From Fennellomyces sp. T-0311 (taxonomy: Eukaryota; Mucoromycota; Mucoromycetes; Mucorales; Lichtheimiaceae): DNA of 64,000 nt. Every line of letters starts with the position of its first letter. Position 1 is the first letter of the stretch. A program made the position numbers and the translations under genes. The notes beneath the pieces are model-generated. The model searched no databases and was not told where the DNA came from. It was given only the letters and a program-made list of their open reading frames with translations. Location of the stretch: assembly GCA_025266875.1 (NCBI GenBank), contig JALLLT010000011.1, forward strand, positions 496,001 through 560,000, in the 5' to 3' direction. This document shows, in pieces, positions 26,881-57,400 of the stretch.

Positions 26881-29506
26881 TATCTCAACTTCCTTTTTCT
26901 GGTCGAACGCTCGTCAATCACTGAGAAATCCGCACAATCGGTTTGCAGGACTTCTTCGAAGCGAAGCCTGTCATTTTGGGGGCATTGATTCTTAGAGACA
27001 GCTTTTTGGAAGTCTAAGATTGTGTTCCAAAGTTGTCTTTTCTTGTGATATGTGATTTTCGATTTTCAATGACAATGTATTCGTACGAACTTCCTCCTTG
27101 GATTAACGCCGGCGGATGCCATTTAAGGGCGGGGTTAAAGCTCCTGGGGTAGAGACCCAGCCAATAATATTAAAAGGTAAGCAACTGTGCCTCGGTATCC
27201 ATAGTGTGGGAACTCCTCGCATTTAGCCAATGAGATTAAAAGTTAATCACGGCTCTCTGGTGCATACTGTATTACAGTTTCAACATGTAATATTGTAAAT
27301 AAGACGGGGATGTTTCGCGTTCTGGCACCTTGTGTTGCCCTTTAATAGCGTGTATGGGGGTAAAGTGATTGGCAAAGTGGCTGTTGCCTTCGAAGATATC
27401 TTTCTGTATTTTTCCAACCTTACCTATCTCCTGTACATTCAATCAATTACGTATAAGTCATTCTAATCAGTCACTGGAAGGTACATAGTTATGATTGGGG
27501 AACACAGATAAGAAGAAACGAATCATAACTATTTCCTACTGGTCCCCGGCTAATAATCATGACATTTATACGTACCGCTTACTTTTGCGCACCGAACCTA
27601 CCTCAGATAACACAAAAGGTACAGATACTGGCACTACATCATTTAAATAGCTTAAGTCACCTCCAAGATGATGCTTCTTCTCAGATTTTACGTATGCATA
27701 CAGAGAGAGAGCTGATATCCGTATATAGCTATAGAGTATTACCTCAGACATACAGCTTTTTCATTTTAAAAGTACATCATACGTACGTAACACATAGTAC
27801 TTAGGTACCAAATACGTCAACAAATCTATGTAGGTACGTAAGCTACAACTCAATATATTTTAGGATTCAGCTAGCTAAAGCATGATATCGTTTGTCCATA
27901 ATACATAGAAGCACTTAAGGTAAGTAGTTCGTAACTATAATACCTCTTAGGGACATACACTGTAGCCTGGGAACACATATCTTAAATACGCTGTAACGAA
28001 AATTCTCCGCTACTCTTTTCCGTTGATACTATCGTTCCTGTCCCCTTATCCGCATATACATGACCTCTGTACCTGTTGTTTATTCTATTATATGGTGCAT
28101 CTGCACCACCACCGTTATCTTCTTCCGCGCTCGGATCTTTTACGAGTTGCACTTCCAAACTTTTATCATATTGTGCTTCTGGCACAATCAGTTTTATCCA
28201 TAGCCAGATTACCCGAAGCTTTATCACAGAAACATATAAATACAACAAGGGTATCGAATGAAATAAAACAGTTAACTTGACCTCAATTAACTTGACCATA
28301 CCTTGTCAACCTCAAGCTAGGAGCATATATCTCCTTTTGGTTAGCTCACCCTTTCTATTTCTCTTATTTCAACTTGTATCGTGAACCCTCATTCACGCAG
28401 ATCTCTTACAACACAAACAATTTCCTATTTCAACAACATACTGTAATGTAGTACTTTCATTTATCTTAGGAATACTTGGCTCAGTATTATAATATGTTTC
28501 ATTTGATTCTTGTATTTTGCTTCCACATATTATCGTACGTATCAATTGCATATATTTGGGAACTGGTTGTTTGCTACATAAGTGTAATCGTACAATTCAA
28601 AATTAAAAAGCTGCGTGTCCGTAGTAGTACTGATAGCTGTATGGTCATGACTGCCTGATTTTCGCTAAATACTTTCATAATCGGCCAGGAAGAAGAGTAG
28701 CGAAGTAGCTATAGAATAGCTAATACACTACTGGTGTTGAAAATAATGATGGTCCCAAAGTTAATGAAGCATCAACTGTTATGATGATGTCAATAGGATA
28801 AGGGGTGATGACTCATTACGTAGTCAATTGGTTGTATCTCGCTCGATAATTCGGAAATCCACACTAACTTGTTTATTAGGAGTTCTTTTATCAAGGTTCT
28901 CGATGATAAACGGGTCGCATACGTAGAACGCTGGTACTTGTTTTCTGTCAAAAGGTACTGCTGATACCGTAAAATAAGGTAGGAAAATCCCTTTCTTATA
29001 TACCCAAAGCTTTACCGCTTGTAATGACCTAGTTAGAGCAAGATTAAGCTTTATTATCTGCTGTAATGATGATTATGCAAAGTCTCTTCTTTTTCTTTCG
29101 CTCACATTTTTTTTGCGAGCCTGATTCTCTGTGTATGTATTGTAAAGCTGCTTTCATTTCACGGGTATATGACAGCCGAGTGAATTCTCCATCCCTGTAA
29201 CCGTATGGGTTCCAATTAATGGTACCGGAAGCATATATCATATTGACGACAATTTGTACGATCAGTGTAAAGTCATAGGCATTGTCAGTATTCACTTATA
29301 GAAACAGAGTATGGCGTTTTTATCACAGACAACTTTGAAAAAAAAAACAAAATATTTCAAGGACATTGATGCTGTGATGCATGATCCGACTGACAACGTA
29401 TCGCTGACCATCGGATTCCGAAAACAAAAGTCAACAAAGTAAATACGTAACTCATTCTTTTTTCTCCCAGCTCTTCCCATCATTTCACTAATAGCTTTTT
29501 TCCAAA
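26881..29506. other. intergenic, AT-rich, no gene recognised
   Basis: Only short unsupported open frames. TACGTA palindromes are frequent here (for example 27450, 27571, 27780, 27832, 28537, 28818 and 28918). The 3' part must contain the Fanzor promoter, but I see no clear TATA box near 29507. Confidence 0.5.
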
Positions 29507-32500
29507 ATGAACGTACAAGAGCCCGCTGAAAACGTCGATGCTTTTATTGACTTAGCTTTCCCGGGAAGGCATCACAGAGTGTGTAGTCGAGTATCAGCAC
29601 TCCATCCTTCACTAAACGAGGATTATCGATATCTAGAAGTATGTGTCTTTACGAAAGCTTTTTACATCATGTGCTCTTGGACTCAAACAGCCGTAATAAA
29701 AAGGACATTTTGAAGCAAATTGCCAAAATCCACACAAAGTTAAAGCGTGATGCATTCAATATTTTAAACTTGCATTTACGCAGGTTTTTGGAAAATGAGG
29801 AGGCCTTCGCAGCCGCACCAGATTTTACAAACCAAACACTATACGCCAAAGCGTATAGACTTGCTTCAGTCATGCCGTTTCATGATGTTCCAAGAGGCGG
29901 GGTAAATAGCACATGTGGTGCATGTCCACTGCCATTAGCTAATGCATGATATTGCGAATAAGGCCGATGATCCTTGGGTAGAAGACTTGAAAGATACTTT
30001 TGCTACGTTTCAGGACTGTAGGAGAGGTTCACAGCGTCAAGGTATATATCACTTGCTTTGTGGGGCTTTTTTTGTTTGACTTGTGCTAAACTTACTTTTA
30101 ATTTTAGCCTTATATGTGATACCTGAAATGAACACATCACTCCTAGGTATTATGTCTGTACGATTTGCAAATCAGGCCATGACAAGTACGTGTGACACTT
30201 TCAAGTCATTTGAAACTATAATTAATTTGGCAAACTTGTTTTGTAGACGTCAAGGAACACATGACGCGAAACTTGCCGAAGTACCTAAAAAACGTGTGTA
30301 CCAAGTACGCCGATATCCTCCGTCAAGCGAACAACAATGAAAACCTTGCACAAGGTTTGACAAGCGGAAAAATAGGTATGTACAGTTACACACCATTCAT
30401 CGGCACGCTAAAGTCGATACTGCCGGTAGCGTCATTGATCTCCACAAATCTCTTTCGACATGATGCACAACCACCAGCAGAATTTGCGAATATAGTTGAT
30501 TTGCAGGACGCCTATATGTAAGCATAAGGCTACACGGTAATTATTTCTAGAAGACAATCAGCTAAAATCAGATTAGGGAACTCCACGGGCACTATGAAGA
30601 GTTTTTGGCCGGTGTTGACTTCGAAGCCATTGCATCAGGACGTTCCCGAACCATATCGAACGAGTTCATTATAAACGTTGCGCGTTTCAATCGATATCTT
30701 CTGAATGTTGCCCATAGTATTGGCGCAAAAACATTTTCGTTGCTTCCACTCGGTAAACACCAGATCGGATTCTATAGCATCGACGGCCGGTGCATGTGGA
30801 GCATCTTACGAACTGTTCATCTTGCAAGACCCGGAGTGCACCAAATGCCGGATGGTTTCATCCAGCCAGTAGGCTTTATGCTACATTTATCTAAGCCACT
30901 GCTAACACATTAGTTTATTAGAACGGACGGTTCATATCGCAGCAGCGCTTTGATATTCTTATGCGCAACCCGTTTCTACAACAGACGTTTTGGGAGACAT
31001 TGTATCGTATTGACCATGTCCAGCGACGAAGGTGGCGATACGGGAGCCAACGTACGCAATTCTGCCGCATAGTATTTCATTTAATATTTATAGCCTTCTT
31101 TTACTTAGATCTCCCTGGTCCGCCTATACGCTTTTCTGGATCCATCGAGACAGATGGCGAATCTATACGGTTCCGTTTCGAACGCCCACGCGGTGGTGCA
31201 AACGCGGGTAAGCCAAAATCGATGATCCGGAAATAATCTTGTTAATGTATATCGTTTATCAGAGCGTTTCCCGGAAACAAGAAACGATTTACAAAAGTTG
31301 CCACGGAATCTGAACCTCACTGGATGGCGACACGGGCTCTATACCTTGAAAAAAGAGCCAATGGGCCTCATAGCGCAGAGGCTTGAGCAATCAGGGCTTG
31401 TCGGCATTGACCCAGGTATGGATCTGAGCGCAATATATAAACGGGTTATTAAGGGTATTTTTCCAGGCAAGCGATCATTCATAACTGCAAGTCCACACGA
31501 AGAGCCATTTAACATGAATCCTGAGCTCCGAAGAGATACCATTGTTGAAGTACCCTCCAGACATTATCAGTAAGTATTGACTGAGAGCAAGTGATCATGT
31601 ACTCATCACACGACAGACATCAAGTGATGCAAAATTGGTTTAACGACAAGGAAAACCGAAATCGCCAGAAAGCCAATATCCAAGTAATCTATGACATGAT
31701 TGCACCAAACACTCCAAACACTCCATCATTTTTGGAGTTTACTGCATACGTGGTAACCACCAGTCTAGTTCACGAGTCGTAAGCACGGTGCATTTGTATG
31801 GTGTCTTCAGTTACTAAAATGCTTCCTTAAAGATTACTTGAATTTAATAGCCACTTCCATCATACGAAGTATCGTCAGATGCTGCACTCTGCAAGGGACT
31901 CGTTTCAGACGCAACTCGTCAATGAAATATGTGGTGTGACACCACCCACAACTCCAGTAAGTTCTGTTCAATGCCCACTTTGACAATATTGATTCTTTAT
32001 TTCAATAGAGGGATAAACCGTTGTATATTCACAACACTACGAAACGCCAACGAAGACGACACCGCCAACGCGCACGCAGATTTGCTGAAGAGGAGTTTGG
32101 ATGGCAAAGAGACCATCGCCCGACAATCGTTGCATATGGAGACGCTGTCTTGTCGCATATGAGTGGCTTCGCATTACTTCCGCATTGGGTAACGTATATA
32201 GCTGCACCACGCACTACTTTAAAACATCTTCTTTCAACTAATTACCACCTATCACTTAGGGCTTTTCGAAAAAGCTAGCTAGATACGCGCTTCTTATTTT
32301 CATTGACGAGTTTCACTCCAGCTCACATTGCTCCCAAGGAGGCGAGGAGCTTCAAGAATTGCACGTCGAGCGCTTCGTGTGTGATCATAAGTGAGTATAT
32401 TTGCATCCTATGTATATCGCATTATCTAATATATAATTCCATGGTGTCGTATCTCTCCAGAAAAGCAAGATATCGCATGCACAGGAATGACGGTTCAAGA

Positions 32501-32870
32501 TCAAAGAAGAAGATGACATGTAAAGATGATGACGGAGAGCTGCAGCACCCCTCTCATCAGTGCCCTGAAGCTCGTCTTGCCCGTAAGTTTCAAAAGAAGG
32601 CAGTATAATAACGTATGGTAGCTAATACATATGCAACTATAGGTATGGATTCGCACAAATCGAATGTATATGGATTAAAGCTCTGTACTAACCATGGGGT
32701 ATGATTGAACAAAGTGAAAAACTTGAAATGTAACCAAACTTACAGATGCAACACAGGTATTGAATCGTGATACAAACGCATCTATGAATATAAGAAGCGT
32801 GCTTCGGACATACATGGAAACGAATGGAGACATTCATTCACGACCTGAGCATCTCAGGAGAGGACCGTAA
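29507..32870 (+). CDS. Fanzor (eukaryotic TnpB-like RNA-guided nuclease), 16 exons, full-length core
   Basis: Homologue of Fanzor proteins, which use an RNA from their own locus to guide DNA cleavage by a RuvC domain. Sixteen exons (29507-29638, 29704-29901, 29963-30041, 30108-30185, 30247-30517, 30577-30868, 30922-31051, 31109-31207, 31263-31569, 31617-31778, 31833-31956, 32009-32188, 32260-32390, 32461-32582, 32643-32698, 32757-32870) total 2475 nt: 824 residues without a stop. RuvC-I Asp is D476 in GLVGIDPGMDLSA. The canonical RuvC-II place reads TIVAYGDAVLSH, without Glu, and E701 in IFIDEFHSS lies about 33 residues further on, the rearranged position known in Fanzors. RuvC-III D792 is in VLNRDTNASMNI. 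Upstream landmarks are SIGAKTFSLLPLGKHQIGF and FSGSIETDGESIRF. The zinc-finger knuckles are altered: CSQG and CTNH instead of CxxC. The tail RPEHLRRGP may be frameshifted. Confidence 0.85.
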
Positions 32871-33020
32871 CGAACAGGTCCACAGCATATTGTTCTGGGC
32901 GGTAAGTGTTTTCGTTTTTTCCGTATTAATTTTTTTTTCTGATTTATTACCTCTCCCCAGCCATTGAACCGGTGCCCATTTAAGTCGTTCTATTATCGAA
33001 ATTATACCGGGTTAAAATAA
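32871..33020 (+). other. out-of-frame spliceable C-terminal extension or 3' UTR of the Fanzor gene
   Basis: Directly after the Fanzor stop, the +1 frame reads EDRNEQVHSILFWA to 32901. There a canonical donor (GTAAGT) opens a 59-nt intron that closes at CCCCAG (32960). The next exon continues in phase as PLNRCPFKSFYY up to TAA at 33018-33020. Conserved splice signals with an open frame suggest an ancestral C-terminus displaced by a one-base change near 32855-32862. Alternatively this is a spliced 3' UTR. The Fanzor guide RNA, if produced, would also be expected in this region. Confidence 0.45.
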
Positions 33021-51400: not shown

Positions 51401-54400
51401 GTTCAACACTTCTTCGCGGATGTCCGGTGGCAGTGCATCAAGGAATTCGGAGCTGATCGAGTCGGTTTCCGGTGCTTGTGTCGATGCACGCCGTTCTCGC
51501 ATATGCTGGTTGACTACCTCTTCTCGAAGATCATCTGGCAAGGCTTCCAGGAACTCCACATCGAGACCAGTGCCCGAAATATCCACTTCTTGACCGCCAA
51601 TGGTGATCGTTTGACGTGGCGTTTCTTCTTGTTCAGTCGCTTGTTGCTCTTGAGTCTGTTCCTGAGTGGACGACGGTGTGGCCTCGGCTTGGATTTCAGA
51701 AGTAGACGGTGCACTGGCGGCAGTAGCCGCAGCCGCAGCAGCAGCAGCAGCAGCACGTTCACGTTCCTCTTCTTCGGCCTTCTTGCGCTCTTCTTCTTCG
51801 CGCCGCCATCGTTCTTCCTCAGCCTTCTTGCGCTTCTCTTCTTCAACGCGTCTCTGTTCCTGTCGCTTCTTTTCCTCTTCTTCTCGCGCCTTCTTGTCGT
51901 CCTTGATAGCAATTGGAATCAATGTATTCAGCAACGAGTTGGAAAGCTTCAAGGCCTTGTCCGTCAATGCACTGCCATACATCATGCGTGCTTCTTGCTG
52001 CCAGCGATCTGATGAGGTCATTGGCAAGAAGTCATGCAAGACGGCCATCAATTCTCGGCTCTGATCGGAACCTGCCGGCTCAATGGCACGGTGAGAGGAA
52101 GCGGCGGGTCGATTGGGATGGATATGGTCAAATTCGAACGTGCGCATAATATCACCGGATCGTCCTTGTAGATCGACCCGGACGGGACCTGAAGGACCAC
52201 CGCCGGGCGCCTGTGTCAAAAAGTTCTCGAGCATGCGGACGGCGCTTCCGCCAATAATGTCTTCAAAGGCTTGCCAGTTGGTGTAACCTTGCGATCGAGA
52301 TCGAGATTGAGGGGCAAGATCGGTCAATGAACGCGGTGGGTGATTGTCGTTGGTGGCGTTCTGGTTCTCGGTGAGAAGTGGGTGAGTGATGACATCGTCT
52401 TGCGCACTCGATCCCGTGTGGCCGTTCATAGCACCTGGAGCACGGAATGATCTCTCCATAGCTAAAAAAAAGCACGCATAAGTTATCCGTCCTGTCAAAT
52501 CTAAGAATAAACATACCAGGATCAACGACAAATCTTCCACGGTTCGATGAGCGGTCGTATCGACGGAAATTGAAGGGAGCCACGGAGCCTTGTCGCACAT
52601 CATCGTCAAGGATGATACCATCTGCAGGAAGATCTTGAGTCAGGAATGGATTTGCTGCGTCCTCATCATCAAGAAGCACACCATCGTTCAAATCATCATT
52701 TTCTCCTTCATCTAAGTTTTGAGACTCGTCGTCTTCGTCAAAGTCTGACTGATCGAGAATGTCCAGTTCGTCATCTCGACCCTAACGGAAACATGAGCAA
52801 AAAAAGTGCTTTGGTGCCTTTAGTTGATCTGCTTACCACATCACCGAATCCATCATTCAAGTGACGATGGTGTCGAATTTCGTGTGTATGACTAGAGTCA
52901 GCTTCGTCAGAGTCCATCTGAATGACGGGATCCGAATCGATGTCCTCCAAACGCCATGTCATCTCGCGTCCTTCTTCCTCCATGTCATCAGAATCGGCGA
53001 TATCTGAATCGTCATCAGTGCTGTGTGTGTCGCCATGGTCGTCGTCATCGGAACCATCCTTGAATATCACTTAGCAACGTGTTGGTACTATGCCGTAACT
53101 ATGTTTACTTACTTCGTCCTCTTCCATGTTGCTATCGTAATGCTGATGGATCATTGCCCCCATATCTTCATCTACATCACCCTCTTCAACATCATCCTCG
53201 CTCATATCTGAAATATCACTGTCGGTTTCCTCATCGAATTCATCTTCATCGAATCTATATCCATCAAAATTCAGTACCTGTGCCAAGCTGTACCCTGATC
53301 AACCTACGTCTCCTCGTCCTCTTCTTCTGAACCAAACTCGTCCATTTCATCCTCCTCCATCACACTGCCATCAAACATGCCAAGGGCAGAGTTGCGATAA
53401 AGATCCGGAGGTTCCTCTTCACCTTCAGCGCCCGTGTTGGCAGGGACATATGACATTTCCTCACGCTTCTTGCCCTCATCCTCCTTGGCCTCATCGGAAA
53501 TCTTGATTGCCATCTTGGTCAACTGCTCCAAGGGTCGCAGCATGGAATTCAGTACAGTCTTTGAATGTGGGTAGTTGATATCCACATCGCTGATAGCCGC
53601 CGTCAGCGCGCCGACGAAATTCTTGTCCAACATGATCTTGGCAATATTGGTGACGGTATCTTCCTTGGCACGTTGACTACCAGATGCACCAGTATTGGGT
53701 CTTGCGTTCAAAATGCGATGGCAAAGATCAGCCAATGCCAAAAACTTGCCGTATTTGGTGGCCAATGGACCCGATGATGCCACTGTTTCCTTCAACGAAC
53801 GAATGATGCCATCAAACACAAACTTGCGTACTTGGACAAGGTCATCTTTGGCTCCGCTGTCGTTCTCGCTTTCAGGCCCGGCGTCGTAGCACATGGCAAC
53901 CAGGACAGATGCGGTCCACATGGAAAGCCCTTGTTGTTTGCGCGAGTTTTCCGCTGTTGGATTGATCGCGTTGTAAGGCAACAGATCGTTGATTAACATG
54001 TGAAGCACTGGATGGCGTGGTCGAACCATGTTTCCGTCTTTGCTGCTCCGCCTGCGGCCAAATGCATGAATGTCGTATTTGCATGACTTGTACGACGATA
54101 CAAGTTCCACTAAGCATTGCAGGATAAAGCCTGTGTAAGCGTATCGTACGTTCTCCGCTGTCTTTTCGGCATCCGTGGTTTTCTTTTCGGGAGCATTCGC
54201 CTCTTCTGATCGGATCTGAACAAGCTCCTGCAACAAGTGATTCACCACAACAGACGAGCTGGATGCGCTATGCCGTTCCGGCTGACTAGACATGGTCACA
54301 TCATTGCTTGCTTCGCCTGACTCTTCGGTCTGCTCGTCCTTTTTGGGATCGTCCTTGTTCAGCAGCTTGACTTGGTAGTTCAATGCGTATGGATCGTAGC

Positions 54401-57400
54401 GCACCAATCGGCAAATCTTGCTGGTTACTTCCAGGAACGAGGATGGCTCGCGTAGTGCAATGTGAGCATTGTTGCGGATAAAGGCGTTGATTTCCACATT
54501 GCGTGGTCGAGGAATGGTGAACCACGTGGTGATCAGATCCTCCATGCTGCTTTCCAACACAGGCTTGCTTTCGATTACGTGGCGCAGAATCAGGATGATG
54601 AAAGCCTGCTGGCCTTGAAGACCCTCGAGACTCGTGCGCGGTTTTGTGAAAAGCAATGGCAATCCACCAAGCTCGACAAACTGTAATGCGGCATCGTTGT
54701 ACTTTGTCAAACGCACAAGAATGCGGAGGATGGCATAAATATCGTTACGTGACAACTGCGTCTTTTTCAGGAACGACACGCAGTTAGAGAGCAGTCGCGT
54801 GCGCTGGGCACCTGAAATGACGGGCTCGGGCTCGACTTCCATGGACTTGGGGCCTGCAACTGCACTTCCTTGCGTCTGGGGTGCCTCGCCATCGCTCATC
54901 CTCTCATCTTCATCGTCGTCTTCCTTGGGGGGCTTTTCGAGCTTGACTTGTTTGGGTTCATCTGCTTGCGAAACAAAGGTTTCAATGACCAAGAAGACGG
55001 TGGTGAGCCATGCTGGCAGTGGAGTCTCGGGAGTGGAGGAGCTGATCGCGTTCACCATGTCAAACAGGAACGCCAACCGCGGTGCACTTTCTGGAATACT
55101 CGATTGCATCGATTGTTCTCGGAAAAGCAAGGCGAGTAAACGCAGGCGAGTGCTCAGAATAGAAGACTCGTTGGGATTTTGACGCGCATCTTCGATCCTT
55201 TCAACCAACAGTGCAAGGATTTTGCTTGCAACCTTGTTCTCGCCATCGTCTTTGCAGAATGCAACCAGTAGATCACGCACATCAAAGATTACATCCTCAC
55301 GCTTGTCCACCAGATCCAACACCAAGGGCGGTACTTCAGCCTTCATGGATGCTCGGATCTTTTCAAGTTCCTTAACTTCGTCAGATTGTTCTGCTCGTTG
55401 CTTGCCTTTGTCATTGGTCTCAGCTTCTTCAGTGGACGGTACTTCGGCGCGACTAGAGAATGCGCTTTCATAGACGTCGCCCGCATCTTCCAGATCACTG
55501 TATTCGATATCGTCATGATTGGACTGACTAGACTCTTGATGTTCCTCTTGCGTGTTTGAAGATTCAGGAACAACCGCACTGTCACTGGAGCCTTCTGCCG
55601 TGGTGTCGGTATTGACAGTGCTTTGGGTATTCGCTTGTTCTCCCGAGGAGCCTTGACCGGTACTACCCAACATTTGCGCAGGGTGACTGAACAGGTAGTC
55701 GACGGCACGCGAGATCTGATTGCTGCATCGAACCATGGCATGTTCAGCTGCGGAACGAGCAAAGCCCATATCCACCAGCCGTTGGACACCGCGTTCATCG
55801 GCAACAACGGGAGTACGCAACAATGTGAATGGCGATGTCAACGGAGCAGAAGGAAACACATTGAAGGGTTCACTCTTCAGACTTGATTCGTTCTCGCCCT
55901 TGAGGATTTCCAGAATGATATCGAGCAGTACATGAATGACCGTCTTGGAGAACTCGCTCAAATCAGCGCCCTGCAGGTACTTTTTGACGGCCGACAGCTT
56001 GAGCTGCATGGAAATGATCCATTCGTAGGGGTCAAAGAAATCGGGCGATTTGCGATCCTTCATCACGATGGGCGCCGTGTATGGCGAATCATGCAGCAGT
56101 TTGGGCGACCCAATGTAGACCAGGACAGTCAGTAACATCTCAAGACTACCGTAGATGCGAACCAACAGATCGACTTGGTCTTTGGACCGCGAGTCTTTCG
56201 GAATGGCATGAATGTCAGACGCCGATTTCCACGTGGTTTCCAGATTCTGCAGTAACAAGTCCGTGCCTCCTTGTCGATCAAACGTCAGAGCCATGGGTGT
56301 ATGCAAGGATGCCTGCGATCGATCGTCCATGAGCAGCAACGAAATCATGGTGTACATTGTGGCAAGATAGTCGTACTTGCATGGTGGAGCATCCGTCATG
56401 GTTGCGCTGGACCATGTGAGATTGTCCTTTAGCAGCTGTGCCATGCAGTTGGCCAACTTGAATGTTTGTGCCTTTTGCACGGCATCCATGGCACGTCGAC
56501 TGATCGACACCTTCACCAGGCCTTGGAACACCGGCATCAGGAACTGCGGAATGTCACCAAGAAGTAGCTTGAAATGCTTGATGTTTTGCATGCGCGGATC
56601 GTTGGCGTCGGGAACCTTTTCTTCTGGCTTGGTGTCGCCCGATGGGGTGGCTTCCTTCGCGGGCGACGATGATGCTCCTTCGCTTGATACTGGTTGCTCA
56701 TCTTCTTGTGCCGTATCCACACCGAAAATACCCAATGGATGATCTACCGCGGCGTTGGTGCTCTTCTTGGTCGCCTTGAACGCGTACCACGAACTTGGCA
56801 TGGAATCTTTGAGCAAAAAGTTCTCCCACATCATAATTCTTATTTAACGTTAGTCCACCATGCTTTTCAAACCAGTTTGCGACAAGAACTAACCTGTGCA
56901 GTTGACCAAGCTGGCTGATGATGTTACTGTTCTCGTGTTCGGCCATAAACTCGGCAACCAGCGATGTGGCATTCTTGCCGGGAGACAGGCCGGCGGAGCA
57001 GCAGATGTTTGACAACAATCCGATGTATCCATGGAGAATGATGAGTTGTCTGAGAAGGTCGTTGCCTTTTTTAATCTTGTCCGGTTCGTTTTCTGGAATA
57101 TTCATTAGTATCACCGTAGCATGCGAATCACTCTTCTCTTACCTTTTACATCGATGTATGCCTCAACCATACTCTCCCGTCGTAGACTGGTATTCTCGGT
57201 AATGAACTTTATGGACTGCTTGGCCTTTTCTGCGATTGCCAAGATCGTTGGGAGTGTACTGGTCTCGCTGATCATCTTGAAGATGTATGCAAGCGAATCG
57301 GATGCAATTGTCACCGAAAAATCTGCAGGCAGCAGCGGAAGTGTGTAATAATCCAGCAACACTTCGGGACAACCGTCCTGAACAAAGTCTCGGATGTTAC

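Follow-up and report, generated by a model that had tools for sequence, protein, structure and literature searches.

A Fanzor1-bearing DNA transposon in Fennellomyces with a guide RNA predicted to be completed by splicing

Does a fungal DNA transposon still carry an intact RNA-guided nuclease, and do its ends reveal where the guide and the target would come from? Few Fanzors have been tested, and the making and limiting of their guide RNAs in eukaryotes are little known. The question is raised by a 64,000-nucleotide stretch of Fennellomyces sp. T-0311 (contig JALLLT010000011.1, positions 496,001 to 560,000, forward strand; here the window), in which a long spliced reading frame on the + strand opens at the ATG at 29507 and contains GIDPG, YGDA, IDEF and NRDTNA in that order. 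We found an open Fanzor1-type gene (29507..32870, + strand) inside a transposon of 5848 bp (5.85 kb; 27128..32975, + strand) whose edges were drawn from those shared by its copies and within which no transposase was found. In the reading that we favor, with a probability of about 0.7, this is a Fanzor1-bearing DNA transposon served in trans by a MULE-type transposase, with an intact Fanzor1 of 797 amino acids (aa), a right-end guide RNA whose stem is completed by splicing, and a motif at its left that is target-adjacent.

The gene, its relatives and its copies

The final gene model has 18 coding exons and ends in a stop codon at 32868-32870. It was reached from a 17-exon draft, refined by spliced alignment of P0001 (Rhizomucor pusillus VTP01DRAFT_10036, itself a partial gene model); this alignment is poor in mid-protein, where P0001 lacks residues and unlikely introns with stops between them result, and its mid part was left unused. 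The 17 predicted coding introns (+ strand) lie at 29639-29703, 29902-29938, 30042-30107, 30186-30246, 30376-30429, 30518-30576, 30869-30921, 31052-31108, 31208-31262, 31416-31466, 31570-31616, 31779-31832, 31957-32008, 32189-32259, 32391-32460, 32583-32642 and 32699-32756. All have a GT donor; 15 acceptors are CAG or TAG and two are AAG (29703 and 31832, closing the introns 29639-29703 and 31779-31832), the one at 29703 giving, by eye, an exon length equal to that of sister copies. The 54-nt stretch 30376-30429 and the 51-nt stretch 31416-31466, the latter between GIDPG and KRSF, escape a test by stop codons and phase because both are in frame and stop-free; the P0001 alignment splices both out, and P0001 reads GIDPGKRTF across the second. 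The original prediction of 16 exons and 824 codons was thus right about a long spliced frame, and its exon count and length give way once the two in-frame introns are removed.

A sister family of elements in the same genome carries Fanzors that share about one third of their residues with those of the window family. When aligned under the guidance of the window protein, L046 and L037 of this family yielded stop-free proteins; each has 16 introns, matching phase by phase those of the window gene minus its 54-nt intron. By the same procedure two other sister copies (L039 and L047) have stops and some differing exon joints. The 54-nt intron occurs in the window family and in none of these four sister alignments. 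At the other end of the gene, the coding sequence closes as does the full-length P0002 (SRPVFLQRQQQ vs SRPEHLRRGP), so the gene end formerly placed at 33020, beyond the element edge, was abandoned. A longer C-terminus to about 33018 was rejected, since it would require a different frame and would run past the element edge, as was a start at the ATG at 29641, whose frame would be broken by a 1-base deletion at 29654 in the copy L029.

The assignment to Fanzor1 is supported by published signatures (PMC10711439). The DPG signature of RuvC-I is present with Asp466 (GIDPG, 31409..31411) and is invariant among homologues. YGDA, at the usual RuvC-II place, offers Asp642 (32141..32143) and no Glu, as originally predicted; the alternative RuvC-II residue is Glu674 of IDEF (32308..32310), invariant in homologues and six residues before the first zinc-ribbon Cys (E674FHSSSHC; EYRTSISCHHC in P0002). 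RuvC-III Asp765 of NRDTNA (32769..32771, all + strand) belongs to RDTNA at 764 and aligns with RDVNA of P0002, and T398-D399-G400, invariant in the alignments, supplies the TDG motif and probably sits in the WED domain. These signatures, and an open frame under purifying selection, uphold the earlier Fanzor reading. Its acidic triad also stands, renumbered from D476, E701 and D792 to D466, E674 and D765; the D-to-E distance drops from 225 to 208, the excess of 17 being the length of the 51-nt intron, and the later Glu announced about 33 residues past YGDA lies at 32 (D642 to E674). The intact CxxC...CxxC zinc ribbon, reported for many Fanzor1 proteins and not for all, is absent from the window protein (CSQG...CTNH), whereas P0002 (CHHC...CPEH) keeps a CxxC together with the D-E-D signature. 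C698, H700, C721 and C735 are invariant in a four-protein alignment and may form an alternative metal site.

A profile search, proposed at the outset as a check, gave a mixed answer: PF07282 matches the window protein at E 3e-5, yet with 24.5 bits it falls under the cut-off of 26.3 (P0002 scores 26.2, just below it, and L046 14.5), and a six-frame PF07282 search of the genome did not list the window gene among its matches. Relatives of the window protein (35-42% identity) come from Rhizomucor and Lichtheimia. They carry only hypothetical-protein names, which bears out the earlier word "undescribed" in one sense, though they were already in databases. P0002 (Lichtheimia hyalospora K492DRAFT_192141, 806 aa) is collinear with the window protein from end to end; it and P0001 were compared with the window gene as proteins. 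A structure model of P0002 built from three sequences reached a pLDDT of 33.5. The genome also holds 17 PF07282 matches (L001-L008 and nine further places) of another, compact Fanzor/TnpB-like type, whose open frames run to 149-283 aa; in L001 the zinc ribbon reads CPKC and a Glu stands within TNEYRSSKTC. In an hhalign comparison with an L001-type protein, nothing beyond the GIDPG stretch was aligned (probability 15.8).

Seven further places in the genome have closely related gene DNA: the element is matched over its full length on contigs C102 and C57, the copy on C100 contains insertions, C1, C94 and C117 lack the left part and C158 lacks the right part. The C102 copy, L029, is 94% identical over the element. 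Compared with it the window gene has no new stop and no coding indel, and the 64 differences (25 nonsynonymous, 39 synonymous) give dN 0.013, dS 0.076 and dN/dS 0.17 (p = 2e-11 against neutrality; computed on an 815-codon draft that still held the 54-nt intron). A chance reading frame is rejected by this test and by the homologues. Among the other copies, new stops are present in L030, L031, L033 and L034; L032 is free of them over 552 codons yet is frameshifted by indels, and L035 covers 55 codons only. Introns make up 29% of gene length and hold 22 of the 39 gene indels over the seven copies (both of those in L029, 6 of 14 in L034). The window copy is open, its lineage has been under purifying selection in the past, and several of its sister copies are dead. 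L031, L032 and L035 keep the right edge and lack the left part, their matches beginning at window positions 30071, 30524 and 32644. Retrotransposition was rejected as the origin of copies without a 5′ part, as the aligned copies retain introns; as for interrupted repair, the sequence examined for L031, L032, L034 and L035 showed no copy of the right flank behind GCCA on the left side.

Element edges, duplications and the motif at the left

Two other copies match the window from 27116 to 32978. The right edge, GGTGCCCA, closing at 32978, is common to all seven copies with a right end (the window included), with one change in C57, C100 and C1. The element lies between identical 9-bp target-site duplications, CCATTTAAG, at 27119..27127 and 32976..32984. 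A conserved block at its left end (27128..27186) has 22 genome matches including itself, 82-100% identical, and forms an imperfect inverted repeat with the right end (score 24 against a shuffled mean of 11.5, with 1 of 2000 shuffles as high); such a repeat was not found for the sister L046 (410 of 2000 shuffles as high).

We read both ends of 12 elements. The duplication is exact in six (the window, C57, C100, C109, C172a and C172b), matches at 8 of 9 positions in C102 and C114, and is poorer in C160 (7/9), C57b (6/9), C139 (4/9) and C95 (3/9), these counts including a fixed triplet. A first reading as a 6-bp duplication was dropped; 9 bp suits both families. The copy at 925503 on C57 (L045 from 4005) and the C114 copy (L074) share the same right flank over the 57 bases compared and have differing left flanks; the former has a poor duplication (6/9), and recombination is possible.

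The fixed triplet is one part of a longer motif. Exact and near-exact duplications open with CCA in family 1, that of the window, or with CAA in family 2, the sister family, and the host bases preceding them are also fixed. All five family-1 left ends have TGCCA (ATGCCA in four, TTGCCA in C100; one of the five elements, C102b, is without a right end), and in the four with both ends read TGCCA stands directly before six variable duplication bases. In the window the motif is ATGCCA (27116..27121, + strand), whose last three bases begin the duplication. Of 8 family-2a-type left ends, 6 have TCAA in register and two, C139 and C95, have it one base off. Outside family 1, CAA is at the corresponding place in 9 of 17 left junctions, several others being linked to no identified Fanzor. 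Our prediction is that this fixed motif serves as a target-adjacent motif.

Duplications of 9 bp, exact in 6 of the 12 elements, with one mismatch in two and with 3-7 of 9 matches in four, fit MULE (MuDR) transposons, and elements of MuDR type with Fanzor1 and 9-bp duplications have been described from three Mucoromycotina (ROr-4, PBl-3 and MCi-4; Bao and Jurka, 2013, PMC3627910). MULE domains are plentiful in this genome, with at least 150 PF10551 matches; none of those listed (150 scored of 196 candidates) lies in the element, and ten open reading frames of its 5′ part gave no Pfam match at E 0.1. With left ends 82-100% identical at 22 places although the Fanzors of the two families are about one third alike, a shared transposase is the simplest reading. 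Presumably the element owed its movement to a MULE-type transposase acting in trans, one whose 9-bp duplications arise behind a fixed motif.

The right end and its candidate intron

In the sister family the last approximately 57 bases can form one long bulged hairpin that closes exactly at the element edge. We analyzed 23 of the 31 located sister right ends, 20 of them distinct. Pairing reached 89.0% of 400 cells, against 86.2% in shuffled data (0 of 500 as high) and at most 47.1% when the strands were slid, a control in which the 40-base blocks, hand-cut from stems, favor structure; covariation was 0.271 against 0.221 shuffled (0 of 500). Fold z scores for four sister right ends were -3.6, -3.3, -2.4 and -1.9, and by our own sum 77 of the 356 paired cells are G-U. 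No long hairpin was folded for C95, C110, C133a, C150, C35a or C139, and a partial one for C35b. The hairpin is preceded by a box, CCACAGC-N9-TGSG, which has 72 matches in the genome (24 for a reversed control), 29 of them at right ends already identified. The match at C68:344282-344301, CCACAGC-N9-TGGG, is identical to the box of L037 and possibly marks another right end.

The same box, CCACAGC-N9-TGGG, has its sole match in the window at 32880-32899 (0.03 expected), from which it appears that the window family shares the 5′ hairpin strand of the sister family. With the CG that follows, it would be the 5′ strand of a candidate guide-RNA terminal hairpin (32880..32901, + strand), at the same spacing as in the sister family. 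There follows a candidate spliceosomal intron of 59 nt in the 3′ untranslated region (UTR), GTAAGTG...CTGAT...CCCCAG (32902..32960, + strand), which, by its GTAAGT donor, CTGAT and CCCCAG acceptor, has the highest intron-consensus score computed; the + strand of the 64-kb window has five occurrences of GTAAGT..CTRAY..YAG at comparable spacing. The putative 3′ strand, CCATTGAACCGGTGCCCA (32961..32978, + strand), then extends through the element edge to include the fixed CCA, and the host DNA past it (32979..32998, + strand) is the predicted guide region, judged by position and by analogy with TnpB and Fanzor loci.

Removal of 32902-32960 gives UGGGCGCC-AUUGAACC-GGUGCCCA, with eight pairs closing at the edge, whereas the unspliced right end has a 6-bp terminal stem around a large loop. 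The fold z scores of the window family are -2.2 to -3.1 spliced and 0.05 to 1.0 unspliced. The eight other GT/AG pairs in the UTR leave a terminal stem of only 2-6 bp, and when 316 further GT positions of the element were tried as donors, none yielded eight pairs (the largest stem being 6). Taken alone, the hairpin has eight or nine pairs in six of seven copies and six in C1. Differences from the window amount to 7 of 294 cells in the UTR pieces (2.4%) and 24 of 350 in the candidate intron (6.9%), beside 7.0% in 5′ noncoding DNA. Our proposal is that splicing completes the guide RNA of this Fanzor1: the predicted intron stands at the position of the sister hairpin's apical arm, and its removal would complete the guide-proximal stem. 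That spliceosomal splicing makes the guide RNA we hold tentatively, at close to even odds.

Rfam gave no match in the 64-kb window. Outside the element, a long frame at 53304-56834 on the minus strand has related proteins that include two named HUWE1 ubiquitin ligase, its nearest relatives being 57-60% identical.

Proposed mechanism and known systems

Upon the open gene and the selection on it, the element edges, the duplications, the one-sided motif and the sister hairpin, all of which the analysis shows, we would build the following mechanism, in which RNA-guided cutting, the target-adjacent role of the motif, the transposase type and splicing are inferred. A transcript would read through the right edge, so that the scaffold stem of the right end closes at the edge and host sequence from 32979 becomes the guide. 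The right-end RNA, in the window family after splicing, would bind Fanzor, and for its target-adjacent motif the nuclease would rely on the fixed bases at the left of the element (TGCCA in the window family, TCAA in most of the sister family). An empty site, predicted to read ATGCCATTTAAGTCG, would match the guide fully and be cut; the site carrying the element keeps the motif and only six guide bases before the element, and would escape. Minimal activity was at 10, 7 and 9 bases in reported guide-length tests of three Fanzors (PMC10432273), so by our own comparison six should be too few. The cut at an element-free site would favor repair from the copy that holds the element.

Several results tell against this reading. 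The p-values for the motif are very small but were computed after it was seen. A Gly replaces the second zinc-ribbon Cys of the window protein, and no PDB chain named Fanzor was matched in sequence searches. Exon indels are not rare among the copies (17 of 39). The coding introns and the UTR intron alike are predictions from sequence. For the sister hairpin, pairs in which both partners have changed number 4, where shuffling gives 3.3 (207 of 500 shuffles as high), and lend no support; the long form appeared in only 16 of 23 single-sequence folds by our own reading of them, and no consensus structure emerged when right ends from the two families were aligned together. In the window family six of the eight stem pairs form without splicing, which would tighten and extend the stem rather than make all of it; in the longer spliced piece C1, with two of the eight pairs broken, folds otherwise, and C94, with a GC donor, has seven pairs. 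The excess of change in the UTR intron over the UTR exons has p 0.009 by cells but 0.09 by columns, the copies being related.

Some of these points would suit a guide RNA that is simply the unspliced right end, the 59-nt stretch being a loop or a UTR intron of no concern to the guide. UTR introns without known function are common, and the 6-bp terminal stem is there without splicing, so this is a serious alternative, which we nonetheless put somewhat below an even chance: the unspliced end shows no gain in folding over shuffled sequences, joining at exactly this donor and acceptor gains two pairs and leaves no gap in the closed stem, and the stretch changes at the rate of 5′ noncoding DNA while the adjoining UTR pieces change at 2.4%. 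We think it unlikely that the open frame belongs to a recently dead or passenger gene, a fossil with inherited motifs not yet hit by stops. The window gene and L029 are both open at a dN/dS of 0.17, and both of the gene indels between them are intronic; that signal may partly predate the death of copies, four others of which have new stops while further ones are frameshifted or truncated, and one zinc-ribbon Cys is lost. It also seems improbable that a transposase alone, through its choice of target and its binding of the ends, accounts for the fixed motif and the right-end hairpin, with no RNA-guided nuclease. The motif does overlap the duplication, several left ends have no identified linked Fanzor, and CCCCAG at the right end belongs to the inverted repeat; yet the motif stands on one side only and is not the same in families with left ends about 90% alike, and G-U pairs in the numbers counted above are not expected to persist in DNA palindromes.

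If the scaffold is spliced, as in the Fanzor1 mechanism that we favor, the nuclease could be armed only where a spliceosome works, survival of the transposon could be tied to host RNA processing, and the biogenesis of RNA-guided nucleases would gain a purely eukaryotic control step. In this genome an open Fanzor1 lies within defined element edges, the target-adjacent motif and the start of the guide are both predicted, and a sister family has a different motif, so that the two predictions can be put to the test directly.

SpuFz1, GtFz1 and PpFz1 (PMC10432273, PMC11423790, PMC10711439) resemble the window system in DPG, the relocated RuvC-II Glu, TDG and RDxNA, in a gene ending near the right edge, in a double-stranded stem at the scaffold end and in location in a eukaryotic transposon. 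The window system differs in its altered zinc ribbon, 17 coding introns, an intron inside the predicted scaffold and the lack of a sequence match to a PDB chain named Fanzor. Its fixed motif starts outside the 9-bp duplication, most of which varies; in SfAV Fanzor1, by contrast, the duplication is predicted to belong to the scaffold. That Fanzor1 occurs in transposons of Mucoromycotina is already known: ROr-4, PBl-3 and MCi-4 (PMC3627910) share with the window element related fungal hosts, 9-bp duplications, inverted repeats and absence of a MuDR transposase; they were compared by description only, with the target motif, guide-RNA hairpin and intron as features on the window side.

A spliced Fanzor or TnpB guide RNA was not found described in open-licence literature, checked mainly at listing level. 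As far as that search reaches, two things appear new: the way a fixed motif is combined with a duplication that mostly varies and, foremost, a guide-RNA scaffold interrupted by a predicted spliceosomal intron. Splicing is also joined with a transposon in the bacterial IStrons, which are linked to TnpB. There a self-splicing group I intron is combined with an IS transposon (PMC4227781), whereas in the window a small spliceosomal intron is predicted to lie inside the guide RNA.

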